Shown here piece by piece: positions 1 through 50,515 of a stretch of 64,000 bases of DNA. The stretch is from the IMG/VR virus record IMGVR_UViG_3300048925_000651, positions 1-64,000 of that record, one strand, 5' to 3'. The number at the start of each line of letters is the position of its first letter. Position 1 is the stretch's first letter. A program made the translations under genes and the position numbers. Under the pieces are notes generated by a model that ran no database searches, had not been told where the DNA came from, and saw only the letters and a list, made by a program, of their open reading frames with translations. Source of the stretch: a virus.

Positions 1-1023
1 CTACACGCGCGGGTCTGCCATGGCGCTCATGAACTTCTCCGACGGCACGACAGCCAGGTGGGCGTAGCGCTCCGTCACGCGGATGGAGGAGTGCCCCATC
101 AGCTTGCTCACCTCCTGGATAGACATCCCGCCCTGCAGGAGCCAGGAGGCGAACGTGTGGCGCAGATCGTGGATGCGGCCGCCGGGGCCGAACGGGGTCC
201 ATACGTCCCGGCGCCAGTTCGACGAGTTGGTGTACTGGAAGACGAAAGGGCCGCCGGCCTTCACGTAGGGCTTGATCTCTGCGGCAACCCAGTCCGGGAT
301 CGGAACGTCGCGGATCTTCCGACTCTTGGGGTACTTCTTGATCTGCCCCGTCGCCTGGTCGCGCACGTGGGTCACGCGGAGCATCTTGCGCTTCAGGTCC
401 ACGCGCTCGGGTGCCAGACCGGCCATCTCCCCCCAACGCAGGCCGCAGCCGACGAGCAGTGCGAGGATGGCTCGATCCCGCGGCCGAGCCTTGAGCTTCT
501 TCATCATCTTGGCGATCTGCTTGCGGGTGAAGAACCGCATCACATCCGTCTCGCCGGGCTCGAGGCCGAGCTTGAAGGTCGGGTTGGTCTTGATGATCTC
601 CGCGTCGACGGCGGCCGAAAGCGATGACGAGAACACGCGGACGGCACGCGCGACGGTCGACTCGGCGAGCTTCTTGCCCTTGAGGACGACCACCCACTCC
701 TTCACGGCATGCCGCGTTATGTCGACGAGGGCAACGTCTCCCCAGTGCGGTTCGATGTGGTTCTTAATGAGGGAGGCGTCGGCGCGCTTCGTCGAAGGAG
801 CAACATCGTGCGCGGCCCACCACTCCGGGTGCCAGTCCGACCACTTCCGCGCACCGGCCGCGGGGTCCCGCCACCCCGGAAGCCGAGCCTCCTCCTCACG
901 CTGGGTCGCCATGGCGAGAGCTTTGGACTTGTGCGCGTGCGTGCCGGCAGAGCGGGTCTTGCCATCGCGATCGCGATAAAGCCCGCGCCACTTCCCAGAT
1001 TGCAGTTGCTGAGTCCATGCCAC
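1..1023 (-). CDS. int: tyrosine-family integrase
   Basis: Site-specific recombinase of the phage integrase (tyrosine recombinase) family, 340 residues, complete. Residues 1-60 are a basic arm-binding-like segment, 61-150 a SAM-like core-binding domain, and 160-335 the catalytic domain. The catalytic set is visible: Arg196 in GCGLRWGEM, Lys233/236 region, His285 and Arg288 in HDLRHT, His311 in LMGHSS, and Tyr320 in ERYAHL. The GTG start lies six bases after a TAGAGT -10 box, so the mRNA is probably leaderless. It diverges from a small Xis-like gene, as expected of a lysogeny module. No att core can be assigned in the window. Confidence 0.96.
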   Translation of the reverse strand: MAWTQQLQSGKWRGLYRDRDGKTRSAGTHAHKSKALAMATQREEEARLPGWRDPAAGARKWSDWHPEWWAAHDVAPSTKRADASLIKNHIEPHWGDVALVDITRHAVKEWVVVLKGKKLAESTVARAVRVFSSSLSAAVDAEIIKTNPTFKLGLEPGETDVMRFFTRKQIAKMMKKLKARPRDRAILALLVGCGLRWGEMAGLAPERVDLKRKMLRVTHVRDQATGQIKKYPKSRKIRDVPIPDWVAAEIKPYVKAGGPFVFQYTNSSNWRRDVWTPFGPGGRIHDLRHTFASWLLQGGMSIQEVSKLMGHSSIRVTERYAHLAVVPSEKFMSAMADPRV

Positions 1024-2728: not shown

Positions 2729-3546
2729 GCGAATCGATGACCGCGAAAGCTCTGGTGGACCGTCTGCGCGCGTCGCTCGTGAAGCCTGGCGACGAAATGC
2801 CCGGTGGCATGTTCATGACGGAGGTCGCTCTCGGCTCTCGTCGTATCGACGGGCTGTACTGCGGTTTCTTCGGCAGCCGCGGCCGGTTCCTTCGCGGCTA
2901 CGAAGTCAAGGTGGCGCGGTCGGACTGGCTCCATGAGCTCGACCAGCCGGCCAAGGCCGAAGCGTGGGAGCAGAACGTGCACGAGTGGTGGATCGTCGCT
3001 CCCGACACCGAGATCGTGCGACCGGAGGAGCTCCCTCACGGGTGGGGCCTGCTGGTCCCGTCTCCGAATCCGCGGACGAAGACGCGCATGGATGTGATCG
3101 TCAAGGCGGCACGGCACGAGAACCGTAACCCGTCGTGGGAGGCTACGCACGCGATCATCCAGAAGGCTGACTCCGAGCGGATGCGCGCCACCAACGAGCG
3201 TGTGCGAGCGCTGCAGGCGGAACACGCAGCCAAGCTCGCCGAAGAGGTGGAGCGACGCCTCTCGTACGACAGCGATTCGGCCGAGCACTGGAAGGGGCGA
3301 GCTGAGCGCGCCGAGGAGCTGAGCGCGGAGATAGGCGACATCCTCGGCATCCGCATCATCGACGGCCAGTACGCCTATGGGTCGGCGGCGGTGTCGGTGA
3401 AGGAGCTTCGGGAGCAGTTCGGGCGCTATCTGCTCGCCAACAAGCAGGTGGACAGCATCCTGCGGCACAAGGTCCACCAGATCGGAGCCGTCAGGACTGC
3501 GCTCGGCGAAGCGACGAAGGCTCTCAAATCGATCGGAGTGGAGTGA
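2725..3546 (+). CDS. PD-(D/E)XK nuclease-like (MmcB/VRR-like) protein with coiled coil
   Basis: 273 residues. The N-terminal half carries RRIDGLYCGFF (Asp42) and RGYEVKVARSDW (Glu60-x-Lys62), the spacing and context of a restriction-endonuclease-like active site as in MmcB-type DNA repair proteins. Residues 150-205 form a charged coiled coil (ERMRATNERVRALQAEHAAK). A nuclease of DNA repair or recombination is the likely role; the exact family assignment is inference. It is the last gene before the HTH protein. Confidence 0.6.
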   Translation: MSESMTAKALVDRLRASLVKPGDEMPGGMFMTEVALGSRRIDGLYCGFFGSRGRFLRGYEVKVARSDWLHELDQPAKAEAWEQNVHEWWIVAPDTEIVRPEELPHGWGLLVPSPNPRTKTRMDVIVKAARHENRNPSWEATHAIIQKADSERMRATNERVRALQAEHAAKLAEEVERRLSYDSDSAEHWKGRAERAEELSAEIGDILGIRIIDGQYAYGSAAVSVKELREQFGRYLLANKQVDSILRHKVHQIGAVRTALGEATKALKSIGVE

Positions 3547-3586
3547 TGCACGCCGTCGCCCCCCCCTCAGGAGACGGAGGCACCCC

Positions 3587-3826
3587 GTGACTGAACCCCG
3601 CGAGGATGTCCGAGAAATGTCGAAGCGGCTGGCCCGGCACGACCGCAACCACCGTCGCATGCTGGTCATCGAACGTCGGTTGCGCGGCCTCTCCCAAGCA
3701 GACGTGGCCAAGCGCCTCGGCGTGCGCACGAGCTGGGTCCGACGCATCGAGCAGTACGACAGCGACCCGCGACTTTCCGAGTTGCGCCGCTACGAGCGCG
3801 CAGTCCGCGCGATCGTCGATAGCTAG
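3587..3826 (+). CDS. XRE-family HTH DNA-binding protein
   Basis: 79 residues from GTG. Residues 34-60 (GLSQADVAKRLGVRTSW...) are a clear Cro/cI-type helix-turn-helix, and the rest is basic helices without a dimerisation or peptidase domain. A 14-codon open frame from 3546 ends over its GTG and may couple translation. A copy of the dispersed operator overlaps its stop codon. Its position near int and the presence of about 20 operators make it a candidate for the protein that binds them, but this is inference; other HTH proteins in the window compete. Confidence 0.8.
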   Translation: MTEPREDVREMSKRLARHDRNHRRMLVIERRLRGLSQADVAKRLGVRTSWVRRIEQYDSDPRLSELRRYERAVRAIVDS

Positions 3827-27570: not shown

Positions 27571-27646
27571 TGGCTCCCCGGGCAGGACTCGAACCTGCGA
27601 CCAACGGCTTAACAGGCCGCCGCTCTGCCAACTGAGCTACCGGGGA
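27571..27646 (-). tRNA. tRNA-Asn (GTT)
   Basis: A 76-base cloverleaf with encoded CCA: acceptor TCCCCGG/CCGGGGA, D arm GTAGCTCAGTTGG, anticodon loop CTGTTAA with GTT at 27611-27613, and T arm GCAGG-TTCGAGT-CCTGC. It lies on the same strand as the replication operon and may be processed from its mRNA. Confidence 0.95.
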
Positions 27647-33283: not shown

Positions 33284-34504
33284 TCAGCCCTTCACGCAGA
33301 GGATTGTGTCGAGCTTCTGCACGACTTCCACCAGATCGCTCTCGGCGGCGATGACGCTGTCGAGGTCCTTGTAAGCGAGCGAGATCTCGTCGATCACGCC
33401 CGCATCGGTGCGCGCCTCGATGCCCTTCATGGTGCGCTCGACATCCTCGACGGTGAACCGGCGCTTGGCTTCGCCGCGGCTCATCTTGCGGCCGGCGCCG
33501 TGGCTGGCCGACTGGAAGGAGGCTTCGTTGCCGAGTCCACGCACGATGTACGAGCCGGTCGCCATGCTGCCGGGGATGAGCGCCAGCTCCCCCTTCTTCG
33601 CGCTGATCGCGCCCTTGCGGGTGACGATCATCTGTCGACCGTCGATGATCTCCTCGGCGACGTAGTTGTGGTGGCAGTTGATCTCCTCGTCGTAGTCGAC
33701 GAAGTAGCGCCCCTCGAGGTGGTCCGACAGCTCACGCTTGACGAGCTCCATCATGATCGTGCGCGAGCGCATCGCGTACTCCTGGGCCCAGTGCAGGTCG
33801 TGGAGGTACTCGTTCATCTCGGGCGTGCCCTTGTAGAAGAGGGAGAGCTCCTGCAGGTGCTTCGGAAGGTCCTGGTTCACCTCGAGCGACTTGGCCTTCT
33901 CGATGTGGCGGGTGCCGAGCACGTTTCCGATGCCGCGGGAGCCGGAGTGCAGGGTGATCCAGATGCGCTTCTGCGCGTCGGTCGTCAGCTCGATGAAGTG
34001 GTTGCCGCCGCCAAGGCTGCCCATCTGCCGCCAGGCGCGCTCCTCCATCGCCCCCACGGGCGCGAACAGGTCGAGGAAGCGTTCCATGAAGCGGTGGTGA
34101 TTGTTGGCCCATGCGTGCCCGAGGAGCTTGCTCACGCGCACGTCGCTCGCGTGCATGTTGTTGCCGACGGGAATGGCGTCCTGGAACCGCTGGCGAAGCA
34201 TCTTCAGATCGCGCTCGTCCAGGTCGTCGAGCACGAGGTTCGTGCGCACGGCGTTCACACCGCAACCGATGTCGACGCCGACGGCGGCCGGCGCGAGCGC
34301 CTGCTCCATCGCGATCACCGAGCCGACGGTGGCGCCGTTGCCCCAGTGCACGTCGGGCATGACCCTCAGGCCGTACAGGCCCGGCAGCTGGGAGACGCTG
34401 CGCAGCTGGTCGAGCGCGCTGTGCTCGATCTCGTGCTCGTGCGCCCAGGCGAGGACCGGGGCTGCAGTGCCGGAGAGGGTGGTGGGGAACTCGTGGTTGG
34501 TCAT
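33284..34504 (-). CDS. rtcB: RtcB RNA ligase
   Basis: 406 residues. A full-length RtcB: DIGCG (Asp78-Cys81), GGGNHFIE (His169), LHSGSRG (His186), HHN (278-280) for manganese, and SHGAGR with His335, the residue that becomes guanylylated. RtcB joins RNA 2',3'-cyclic or 3'-phosphate ends to 5'-OH ends. In phages it is best explained as repair of tRNAs cut by host ribonuclease defences. The window also encodes tRNA-Asn and a tRNA-like RNA. No archease is seen. Confidence 0.95.
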   Translation of the reverse strand: MTNHEFPTTLSGTAAPVLAWAHEHEIEHSALDQLRSVSQLPGLYGLRVMPDVHWGNGATVGSVIAMEQALAPAAVGVDIGCGVNAVRTNLVLDDLDERDLKMLRQRFQDAIPVGNNMHASDVRVSKLLGHAWANNHHRFMERFLDLFAPVGAMEERAWRQMGSLGGGNHFIELTTDAQKRIWITLHSGSRGIGNVLGTRHIEKAKSLEVNQDLPKHLQELSLFYKGTPEMNEYLHDLHWAQEYAMRSRTIMMELVKRELSDHLEGRYFVDYDEEINCHHNYVAEEIIDGRQMIVTRKGAISAKKGELALIPGSMATGSYIVRGLGNEASFQSASHGAGRKMSRGEAKRRFTVEDVERTMKGIEARTDAGVIDEISLAYKDLDSVIAAESDLVEVVQKLDTILCVKG

Positions 34505-48691: not shown

Positions 48692-49630
48692 ATGTTCCTG
48701 CTCATCCTCGCGATCGCGCTCGCGCTCGTCGGCCTGGTGGCCGCCGCGGCCGCGTTCTTCTCGCGCAACGTCAGATTCGCCGCGGTGATCGTCGCGATCA
48801 TCGCCTTCATCGGTGGCGGCGTGTCGCTGTTCTCCGCCACGTTCTACGCCAACGGCGTCGGCGAGGCCAAGGTGCTCGTCAACAGCGTCGACAAGACCGT
48901 CGTCGGCACCATCGAGGAGCCCGGTTCGGGCTTCAAGGCGCCCTGGATCGACTTCGTCGACTTCGACTTGTTCTCCCAGGAGCTCCTCTACGCCGGCTCC
49001 GGTGACTCCACCCCTTCGTACTCCGGCGGCTCGGTCTCGGGCGCTGAGGTGACCGTCTCGGTCGGCGGCGCGAACGGCGGCTCCACTCAGGCCAACGTCG
49101 ACATCTCGGTGACCTACAGCGTCGACGCGGATGCCGTCGAGGCGATCTACGAGGGCTACCGCTCGCAGGAGCGCTTCACCAAGCAGGTCATCGAGAAGAC
49201 GATCCTCTCGACGATCCGCAGCGTCCCCTCGGCCTACTCCGCAACCGACTTCCGTGGCGCATCGCGCACCGAGGCCGCCGACATCATCACGAAGCAGCTG
49301 AACGAGAAGCTGCAGCCCCTCGGCGTCAACGTCGACTTCGTGAACATCCAGAACGTCACCTACCCCGACGAGGTGGAGGCCGCGCTGAAGGACGTGGAGG
49401 TGGCGAACCAGAAGCAGCAGAAGGCCCAGGCTGACCTGCGCGCCGCGGAGACCGCCGCCCAGCAGAAGGTCGTCGAGGCCCAGGCCGAGTCGGACGCCAA
49501 CGGCATCCTGAGCGCCAGCCTCACCCCGCAGGTGCTCGAGCAGCGCCGCATCGACGCCCTGCTGAAGGCCGCCGAGTCCGGCAGCCTCATCGTCGACGGC
49601 GGTGGCGGCGGGATCCTCATCCAGAAGTAA
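48692..49630 (+). CDS. SPFH/band 7 (prohibitin-like) membrane protein
   Basis: 312 residues. Two hydrophobic segments at 1-23 and 29-51 anchor it. Residues 60-240 are the SPFH domain (VDISVTYSVDADAVEAIYEGYRS...), and residues 235-285 form the Ala/Glu/Lys coiled coil typical of prohibitins (QKQQKAQADLRAAETAAQQKVV). A Gly-rich C-terminus follows. These proteins form membrane rings or scaffolds. Band-7 proteins occur in several actinophages with unknown role; membrane protection or superinfection immunity is speculative. Confidence 0.88.
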   Translation: MFLLILAIALALVGLVAAAAAFFSRNVRFAAVIVAIIAFIGGGVSLFSATFYANGVGEAKVLVNSVDKTVVGTIEEPGSGFKAPWIDFVDFDLFSQELLYAGSGDSTPSYSGGSVSGAEVTVSVGGANGGSTQANVDISVTYSVDADAVEAIYEGYRSQERFTKQVIEKTILSTIRSVPSAYSATDFRGASRTEAADIITKQLNEKLQPLGVNVDFVNIQNVTYPDEVEAALKDVEVANQKQQKAQADLRAAETAAQQKVVEAQAESDANGILSASLTPQVLEQRRIDALLKAAESGSLIVDGGGGGILIQK

Positions 49631-49640
49631 CCCCACCCCA

Positions 49641-49722
49641 GCGCCGATGCGGCAACTCCTCCCCACCGCCCCACGCGGGCACCAGGCTGAGGAGTCCGGG
49701 TTCGACCCCCGGCGGCGCACCA
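49641..49722 (+). ncRNA. tRNA-like RNA lacking a D arm, with encoded CCA
   Basis: The 5' GCGCCG (49641-49646) pairs with CGGCGC (49713-49718), followed by A-CCA. A perfect T arm CCGGG-TTCGACC-CCCGG occupies 49696-49712. Between them is a perfect 7-bp helix ACTCCTC/GAGGAGT (49655-49661 with 49689-49695) stacked directly on the T stem, with an inner GCCC/GGGC hairpin and no D stem or normal anticodon loop. The acceptor has six pairs only. The topology recalls the tRNA domain of tmRNA. A decayed tRNA is the alternative. Confidence 0.55.
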
Positions 49723-49756: not shown

Positions 49757-50515
49757 ATGACGAACCCCAACAGCAAGGCGGGCCTCCGCGAGAGGCTCAT
49801 CGAAGAGCTTGAGCTGACTTCCCGCCTTGACAGCAAGCTGGCCAAAGCCGAGAGCGTGCTCCGCAACCTCGGCTACGAGCGTGTGACGGATGAACGCCCC
49901 ATCCCTGGCTCCTCGGGTATCGTCCTCTTCGATCTTGGTAGGACAGACTGGCGCCTCTCGCGCGAGGCTCTCGAGGAGAAGCGCAAGGTGAGCGAGGACG
50001 CCAAGGCTGCCCACCAGAAGGACATCGCCGCCGCCGTGGAGCAGTCCCGCCTCGACACCCTCGCCGCGGTCATCGACGCGCTCGAGCTGAGCGAGTACGG
50101 CTACCAGCGCCCCAACAGCACGGGCTTCGCGTACCCCGCTGCGGACATCCGAGGAGCCCTCGGTCTCGGACCCAAGGGCCCCGAGCGCCTCTGGTCGGAC
50201 ATCCAGACCGCCCTCGCGCTGCGCGCTGAGGCGAAGACCGACGCTGACCGCCGGGCCGCCGCGGAACGGCTCAAGCGCGCCACGCGGCCCGCCTTCGCCA
50301 CTGGCGGCTACACCGGCACGACCGGTGACCCGGCCGGGCTTGTTCAGCATGCCCTGCTGAAGGTTGGTTACGCCGGTCCTCTCTCCGCCGCCGACACCGA
50401 GAGCATCAGGGCTCTCGCCAAGCGGTTCTCCACCTCGACCACCGCCAAACCGAGTCCCGCCCCCGCCGCCGCCCCGAAGAAGCCGAAGGCCAAGAAGAAG
50501 GCGGCCAAGAAGTGA
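49757..50515 (+). CDS. hypothetical protein with Lys-rich histone-like tail
   Basis: 252 residues. The N-terminus is helical and coiled-coil-like. A middle segment FATGGYTGTTGDPAGLVQHALLKVG echoes the tape measure C-terminal GGYTGSGGKYTPAGIVHKGE. The last 30 residues are Pro/Ala/Lys (PKKPKAKKKAAKK), like histone H1 tails, suggesting DNA or RNA binding. ATG follows GAAGGAGAG, right after the tRNA-like RNA. Unknown function. Confidence 0.7.
   Translation: MTNPNSKAGLRERLIEELELTSRLDSKLAKAESVLRNLGYERVTDERPIPGSSGIVLFDLGRTDWRLSREALEEKRKVSEDAKAAHQKDIAAAVEQSRLDTLAAVIDALELSEYGYQRPNSTGFAYPAADIRGALGLGPKGPERLWSDIQTALALRAEAKTDADRRAAAERLKRATRPAFATGGYTGTTGDPAGLVQHALLKVGYAGPLSAADTESIRALAKRFSTSTTAKPSPAPAAAPKKPKAKKKAAKK

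Follow-up and report, generated by a model that had tools for sequence, protein, structure and literature searches.

A tRNA-like element behind a viral SPFH gene

What kind of RNA carries the acceptor, T arm and 3' ACCA of a tRNA but no arm for decoding, and what would it do in a virus that encodes it between two protein genes? This question is raised by the virus record IMGVR_UViG_3300048925_000651 (IMG/VR), which comprises 69,909 bases and contains a tape-measure protein and a terminase; we analysed its positions 1 to 64,000, hereafter the window. The element spans positions 49641-49722 on the plus strand and its RNA reads GCGCCG-AUGCGGCA-ACUCCUC-(27 nt)-GAGGAGU-CCGGG-UUCGACC-CCCGG-CGGCGC-ACCA. 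A first-pass annotation had described it as D-armless, with a T arm, a helix (P2) stacked on the T stem and a 3' ACCA; this layout is exact to the base, and the helices drawn there are those of the minimum-energy fold. P2 is a 7-bp helix placed directly on the perfect T arm (Table 1). Among the features of tRNA (RF00005), canonical T arm and loop, acceptor, A73 and CCA are all present; D arm, anticodon arm with 7-nt loop and 7-bp acceptor are absent. The element decodes nothing, as a variable hairpin stands where the anticodon arm would be, and the loop part beyond P2 varies in length and sequence between relatives. The suggested decoy for anticodon nucleases is unlikely, since no anticodon loop is kept. 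The GG of the D loop may be able to dock on the T loop and form an elbow. The acceptor/T stack comprises 11 pairs versus 12 in tRNA, which could weaken cleavage by RNase P, and pair 3-70 is G3-C70 and not the G3.U70 alanylation mark of tmRNA.

Table 1. Positions of the parts of the element and of other features in the window.
Feature	Position	Strand	Basis
SPFH / Band 7 membrane protein gene, 312 aa, immediately upstream of the element	48692-49630	+	Pfam Band_7, E 5e-22
Acceptor stem, 5' strand GCGCCG (6 bp)	49641-49646	+	sequence and fold
D loop AUGCGGCA, 8 nt, without D stem, contains GG	49647-49654	+	sequence and fold
Helix P2, 5' strand ACUCCUC (replaces anticodon stem)	49655-49661	+	sequence and fold
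P2-closing loop, 27 nt; small hairpin CCGC/GCGG possible; no anticodon loop	49662-49688	+	
Helix P2, 3' strand GAGGAGU, abuts T stem, no variable region	49689-49695	+	
T arm CCGGG-UUCGACC-CCCGG, canonical T loop	49696-49712	+	sequence and fold
Acceptor stem, 3' strand CGGCGC	49713-49718	+	sequence and fold
Discriminator A and encoded CCA	49719-49722	+	sequence
Lys-rich protein gene, 252 aa, downstream, RBS GGAG in front	49757-50515	+	
tRNA-Asn(GTT), ordinary, encoded CCA	27571-27646	-	ARAGORN, Rfam
Tyrosine integrase domain, start of window	52-534	-	
RtcB-type tRNA ligase gene	33284-34504	-	

The element lies between an SPFH gene and a Lys-rich gene, as stated in the first-pass annotation. The element starts 10-11 nt past the SPFH stop codon and ends 34 nt before the Lys-rich ORF, whose product has no Pfam or PHROGs match. 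The SPFH protein is 45-64% identical to SPFH proteins of other phage loci.

Annotation tools and chance expectation

Neither ARAGORN nor Rfam at gathering threshold called the element site, the tRNA-Asn being the only tRNA found in the window, and ARAGORN detected no tmRNA. The best sub-threshold Rfam match of the element is mascRNA-menRNA (RF01684) with 17.7 bits (E 0.21), the gathering cut-off being 42.5 bits. Fold energy is unremarkable (z -1.42, with 16 of 200 shuffles equally good) and was dropped as proof. We then counted a motif in which T arm and acceptor are combined with a P2 that directly adjoins the T stem. In the window it occurs only at the element and the tRNA-Asn; of 150 dinucleotide shuffles, two contain the motif at all and none contains it with CCA. 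This definition was chosen after the element had been seen and the count is weak by itself, therefore relatives were sought. DNA similarity of the window element within phage records yielded only short T-arm matches to tRNAs and similar. A chance arrangement of a GC-rich intergenic spacer would accord with the modest fold energy and with a covariance model score near the noise of whole bacterial genomes (see below), but the rarity of the motif in shuffled windows, a syntenic element in another phage and the enrichment of candidates behind SPFH genes speak against it, and we hold it to be very improbable. In our judgement the main evidence is comparative, namely synteny with phage Count and compensatory changes in relatives.

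Relatives of the element in other phages

The search went from the SPFH gene to other phages and from there through DNA comparison, pattern scans and further SPFH searches. In Microbacterium phage Count the same layout lies at +8 nt behind the stop of a homologous SPFH gene (GCGCAC-GGGGCGGCAGC-GUCCUCA-UGUUCCUACCUC-UGAGGAU-CUGGAG-UUCAAGU-CUCCAG-GUGCGC-ACGC), with a P2-closing loop of 12 nt as compared to 27 nt in the window. DNA comparison with the Count stretch revealed Footloose and Camille, where the similarity is confined to the element and a few leader bases and where the element carries no annotation in the records. L024, L019 and L205 came from the pattern scans and from additional searches with SPFH. 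The same layout is thus present in Count, Camille, Footloose and three metaviral contigs, and the window element shares the features of this type: a 6-bp acceptor, a GG-containing D loop without stem, a 6-7-bp P2 abutting the T stem and a T loop UUCRA. In L019, L205 and Camille a small gene lies directly in front of the element; by our reading the encoded proteins appear to be related and membrane-spanning.

The six-pair acceptor, already pointed out in the first-pass annotation, recurs in Count, Footloose, Camille, L019, L024, L205 and in the L218-type contigs and halovirus elements described below; because the same length recurs across relatives and both other groups, it is not a defect. The encoded CCA did not hold up as a defining trait, as ACCA is found only in the window and Camille and GCCA in L024, while the others end in ACGC, ACUU, ACAC or ACUC. 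In two further loci, L002 and L012, the slot is occupied by tRNA-like elements whose acceptors also have 6 bp, but these possess a D arm; L002 passes the Rfam tRNA cut-off with 36 bits. A CYUAC loop motif of Count-type elements was considered as an anticodon and rejected, since L024 and L019 do not have it in a 7-nt loop. The hairpin-rich spacers behind SPFH in L001 and L011 have 6-bp ends and no canonical T arm and were left out of the counts. Elsewhere in Count, gene 50 (L017:2530-2600) is annotated as tRNA-Arg(agg), and ARAGORN gives it a 2-nt anticodon and the label tRNA-???; it may be another unusual tRNA-like element.

Compensatory changes and a covariance model

Among the four closest members every cell is paired and 7 of 19 pairs change on both sides. 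Alignment A5 contains these four, L019 and the window; it was fitted to the model and hence leans towards it. Every cell in it is paired, with both-sided changes at 9 of 19 pairs; none of 500 shuffles and no slid register was as good. Most covariation falls in acceptor and T stem, with both-sided changes at five of the six acceptor pairs and pairing kept, and P2 is nearly invariant in the six sequences with some both-sided change. In L019 and L205 P2 is shorter by one base in either strand and stays paired; both-sided P2 changes occur in alignments A5, A8 and A10. The compensatory changes that the first-pass annotation had proposed to look for were thus found, in the Count-type set and in two further groups. 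Within groups, the sequence of D loop and P2 is better conserved than that of acceptor and T stem, where it is the pairing that is kept; the conservation of D loop and P2 suggests specific recognition. As far as a comparison of sequences can, the alignments demonstrate a structured RNA gene under selection for pairing and without a decoding arm, and the description as a tRNA-like RNA lacking a D arm, laid out like the tRNA domain of tmRNA without its mRNA-like insert, is supported by both fold and relatives.

A model, R1, built from four relatives and without the window sequence, scored L019 at 57 bits and L205 at 66 bits. It gave the window element 22.5 bits (E 0.015-0.04) as the top match in its own genome; this score is suggestive of membership and no more, because 23-28 bits arise by chance in whole bacterial genomes, and we regard the synteny with Count as the stronger argument. 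In 400 Microbacteriaceae-centred genomes R1 found a single match, a partial tandem copy of tRNA-Lys, which is not a member. At this bacterial site (L192:1438-1570) a tRNA-Lys precedes an incomplete tandem repeat of its own 3' half, which mimics the model by chance and is conceivably an old att site. A pattern scan of bacterial and archaeal genomes gave 110 stretches, most of those listed having no T stem of at least 4 pairs and looking like coding sequence; they were taken as chance.

L218-type contigs and the likeness to tmRNA

The same layout was found in a second group of mostly isolate-derived phage contigs (L218, L228-L230 and others). The L218 type has a 6-bp acceptor with G3.U70, an 11-nt D loop (GCAGGUUNGCC), a 7-bp P2, one A, the T arm and A73. 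Its P2 variants are compensatory (CCCGCUG/CAGCGGG, CCCGGCC/GGCCGGG, CCCGGUC/GACCGGG), and alignment A8 shows both-sided changes at 7 of 18 pairs. All L218-type contigs keep the alanine set of G3.U70 and A73, and G3.U70 is confined to this group, so that alanine charging is plausible for the L218 type only. One amino acid common to the whole family seems unlikely, because pairs 2-71 and 3-70 differ between groups. In L304, L307 and L309, the SPFH-less members whose flanking ORFs were inspected, the element follows a small protein gene and precedes another gene; as we read them, the 5' gene product is apparently membrane-spanning and the 3' one looks like SSB.

With the alanine set at hand, one may ask whether the element is a charged mini-tmRNA-like RNA which interferes with trans-translation or partly replaces it (SmpB, alanyl-tRNA synthetase). 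The elbow without D stem and the P2 stacked on the T arm are as in tmRNA, and all L218-type contigs add G3.U70 and A73; but the variable loop, as short as 12 nt in Count, retains no reading frame for a tag, G3.U70 is missing in the window, Count and most others, and ARAGORN calls no tmRNA. We consider such a role unlikely.

Elements in haloarchaeal viruses

A third group with the same layout comprises haloarchaeal viruses from three genera, including HF1 and HF2. The element (GCGACC-AAUGGC-P2-GGCG(x)GG-UUCGAUU-CCCGCC-GGUCGC) lies behind SPFH and a small gene; 39 records matched, 32 of them over most of the query, and none of the 39 has a tRNA annotation at the element site (HF1 and HF2 are unannotated there). 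HRTV-25 and HRTV-27, from other genera, carry the acceptors GCUCCC/GGGAGC and GUCCUC/GAGGAC, wholly re-paired over 6 bp, and have no recognisable SPFH gene beside the element. The halovirus alignment A10 has all of its 168 cells paired, with both-sided changes at 7 of 28 pairs. A GG occurs in the D loop of each of the three groups, window/Count, L218-type and halovirus. The groups may be convergent, as no profile links them.

In HRTV-10, HRTV-17 and VOLN27B a genuine tRNA-Gly(UCC) with the same acceptor occupies this slot, which suggests that the element is competent for tRNA processing. Just 3' of the tRNA in two of the tRNA-Gly haloviruses (L290:2133-2250 and L291:2136-2302) we noticed a P2 hairpin with complementary ends and without T arm, which points to recombination of the tRNA-like element with a tRNA. 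The shared slot and acceptor, together with the tRNA-level score of L002, could mean that the elements are decayed or recombined tRNA genes without function, a possibility raised in the first-pass annotation. This reading is disfavoured by the compensatory changes seen in each of the three groups, by the recurring layout of 6-bp acceptor and P2 on the T stem, and by persistence across three viral genera, among them genera without SPFH neighbour; we judge it quite improbable.

The HF2 papers describe other tRNA-like genes, one of which serves as attP (PMC8707807). With this precedent and the tyrosine integrase gene at 52-534 of the window, the element might be a phage attachment site, in which the 3' portion of a host tRNA gene is duplicated for integration; against this, its 5' acceptor strand pairs and co-varies, neither of which an attP core needs, and the integrase lies about 49 kb away in the record. 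Moreover, the 3' half had no match with at most 1 mismatch in 300 genomes from the family to which an Agromyces genome belongs, a family that may not be the host's, and searches with two integrase families gave nothing in Count or Camille. An attachment site is accordingly extremely unlikely.

Association with SPFH genes

A scan of 45 SPFH loci gave 14 candidates within 600 nt downstream (0.52/kb) and 16 in 484 kb elsewhere (0.033/kb), an approximately 16-fold enrichment. The nominal Poisson value of 1e-12 is too small, because some loci are related, two matches are ordinary tRNAs, one locus gives two and the prompting window is included. Although the enrichment is large, the element is not tied to SPFH: no SPFH gene was detected alongside it in Footloose, L024, Camille, HRTV-25/27 and about 10 L218-type contigs.

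Several other loci are of note here. Behind SPFH in L216 there are two tandem tRNA-like elements (3275-3386 and 3504-3639) with D arms and 7-bp acceptors, in which extended helices of 10 pairs or so replace the anticodon arm. About 50 nt behind SPFH in L221 (3368-3456; also L223, L225 and L243) an element has a 7-bp acceptor, a 10-nt D loop with GG, a 6-bp P2 and no anticodon arm. In Microbacterium phage Cece a gene for a Ro-like RNA-binding protein lies downstream of SPFH (L007:4157-5657), and TROVE is also present in Magritte, L010 and L013, which show no detected element. RtcB genes occur in Count, L012, Cece and L013 as well as in the window, but RtcB was rejected as a constant partner of the element, being present in the window, Count and L012 and missing from Footloose, Camille and others. 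As a tendency, RtcB and viral SPFH may travel together, because two proviruses in a halovirus study are without both RtcB and prohibitin (PMC7230728).

Proposed processing and function

Judging from these comparisons, the element is probably a virus-encoded non-decoding tRNA-like RNA that tRNA-processing enzymes excise from mRNA and that serves either as a mimic of tRNA or as a processing signal. Excision is likely because RNase P and RNase Z recognise their substrates by the acceptor-T stack. The element would be transcribed together with the SPFH gene, RNase P would cut at its 5' end, and the 3' end would be finished by RNase Z or by 3' exonucleases, with CCA addition where CCA is not encoded; this would leave the SPFH mRNA with a discrete 3' terminus and set free a stable, L-shaped RNA of some 80 nt. 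Less certainly, the excised RNA may act in trans, as a tRNA mimic occupying a factor that recognises the tRNA elbow or acceptor, with P2 and D loop as its putative specific contact. We infer a mimic in trans from the sequence conservation of D loop and P2, which exceeds what the fold requires, and from the persistence of the element in differing gene neighbourhoods.

The foremost alternative is a signal that works only in cis: the tRNA-like structure would serve as punctuation, its cleavage giving the mRNA of SPFH or small membrane protein a 3' end, as mascRNA does for MALAT1, and the small RNA would be a by-product. The element follows the SPFH stop at 7-15 nt in the window, Count, L002 and L216, relatives without element often have an intrinsic terminator in this slot, and mascRNA-menRNA is the best sub-threshold Rfam match. 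Yet the exclusion of terminator and element is not significant (p 0.105), the sequence of D loop and P2 is more conserved than a signal of structure alone needs, and in Footloose and L024 the element does not closely follow any gene. We regard action in cis only as possible but less likely. More speculative still, and doubtful at present, would be an ancient or repeatedly evolved class of viral tRNA mimics in bacterial and archaeal tailed viruses, linked to SPFH or small membrane proteins and acting as a dedicated trans RNA, perhaps as an RNA partner of the SPFH assembly or as a sponge for a host factor that binds the tRNA elbow.

Comparison with known tRNA-like RNAs

This kind of RNA is absent from Rfam and from the annotations examined and looks like an overlooked viral RNA class; in the open-access literature we found no earlier description of SPFH-linked tRNA-like RNAs or of tRNA-mimic or decoy RNAs of phages. 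Annotation programs seek whole tRNAs or tmRNAs and such RNAs are passed over, as for example in HF1 and HF2. If they are processed and stable, bacterial and archaeal tailed viruses make tRNA mimics unable to decode. If true, this would offer a handle on the roles of phage tRNA clusters, RtcB ligases and viral SPFH proteins in infection, and it is directly testable, as laboratory virus-host pairs are available for Count, Camille, Footloose and HF2.

Phage tRNA genes, including those that evade tRNA-targeting defences (PMC10264068), are likewise viral, likely have processed ends and sometimes occupy the same slot (tRNA-Gly in haloviruses), whereas the viral element has no anticodon arm with 7-nt loop, hence neither decodes nor offers a target to anticodon nucleases. 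With the tRNA-like domain of tmRNA it shares acceptor and T arm, the stemless D loop, P2 stacked on the T arm and A73; it differs in having no mRNA-like domain or tag, six instead of seven acceptor pairs and G3.U70 only in the L218 type, and in being missed by ARAGORN and Rfam. MascRNA and menRNA (RF01684) are also non-decoding tRNA-like RNAs at the 3' end of a longer transcript, which for the virus is inferred, but mascRNA has a short D arm and a small anticodon-arm hairpin, these RNAs derive from animal nuclear transcripts, and the score of the window is far under the family cut-off. The tRNA-like module of bacterial Y RNA (YrlA) similarly has a tRNA-mimicking elbow without anticodon function. 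The ends of YrlA RNA differ from those of the viral element, and Y RNA is bound by Ro/Rsr. No PF05731 (TROVE) match was found in the window genome or in the Count, Footloose, Camille, L024 and L019 records, some of which may be fragments, and a Y RNA/Ro reading was rejected for want of a TROVE gene in element carriers. The 3' tRNA-like structures of plant viruses, finally, are tRNA mimicry by viral RNA as well; they form the 3' ends of genomic RNA, often with pseudoknotted acceptors, whereas the element described here is a gene inside the operons of DNA viruses.
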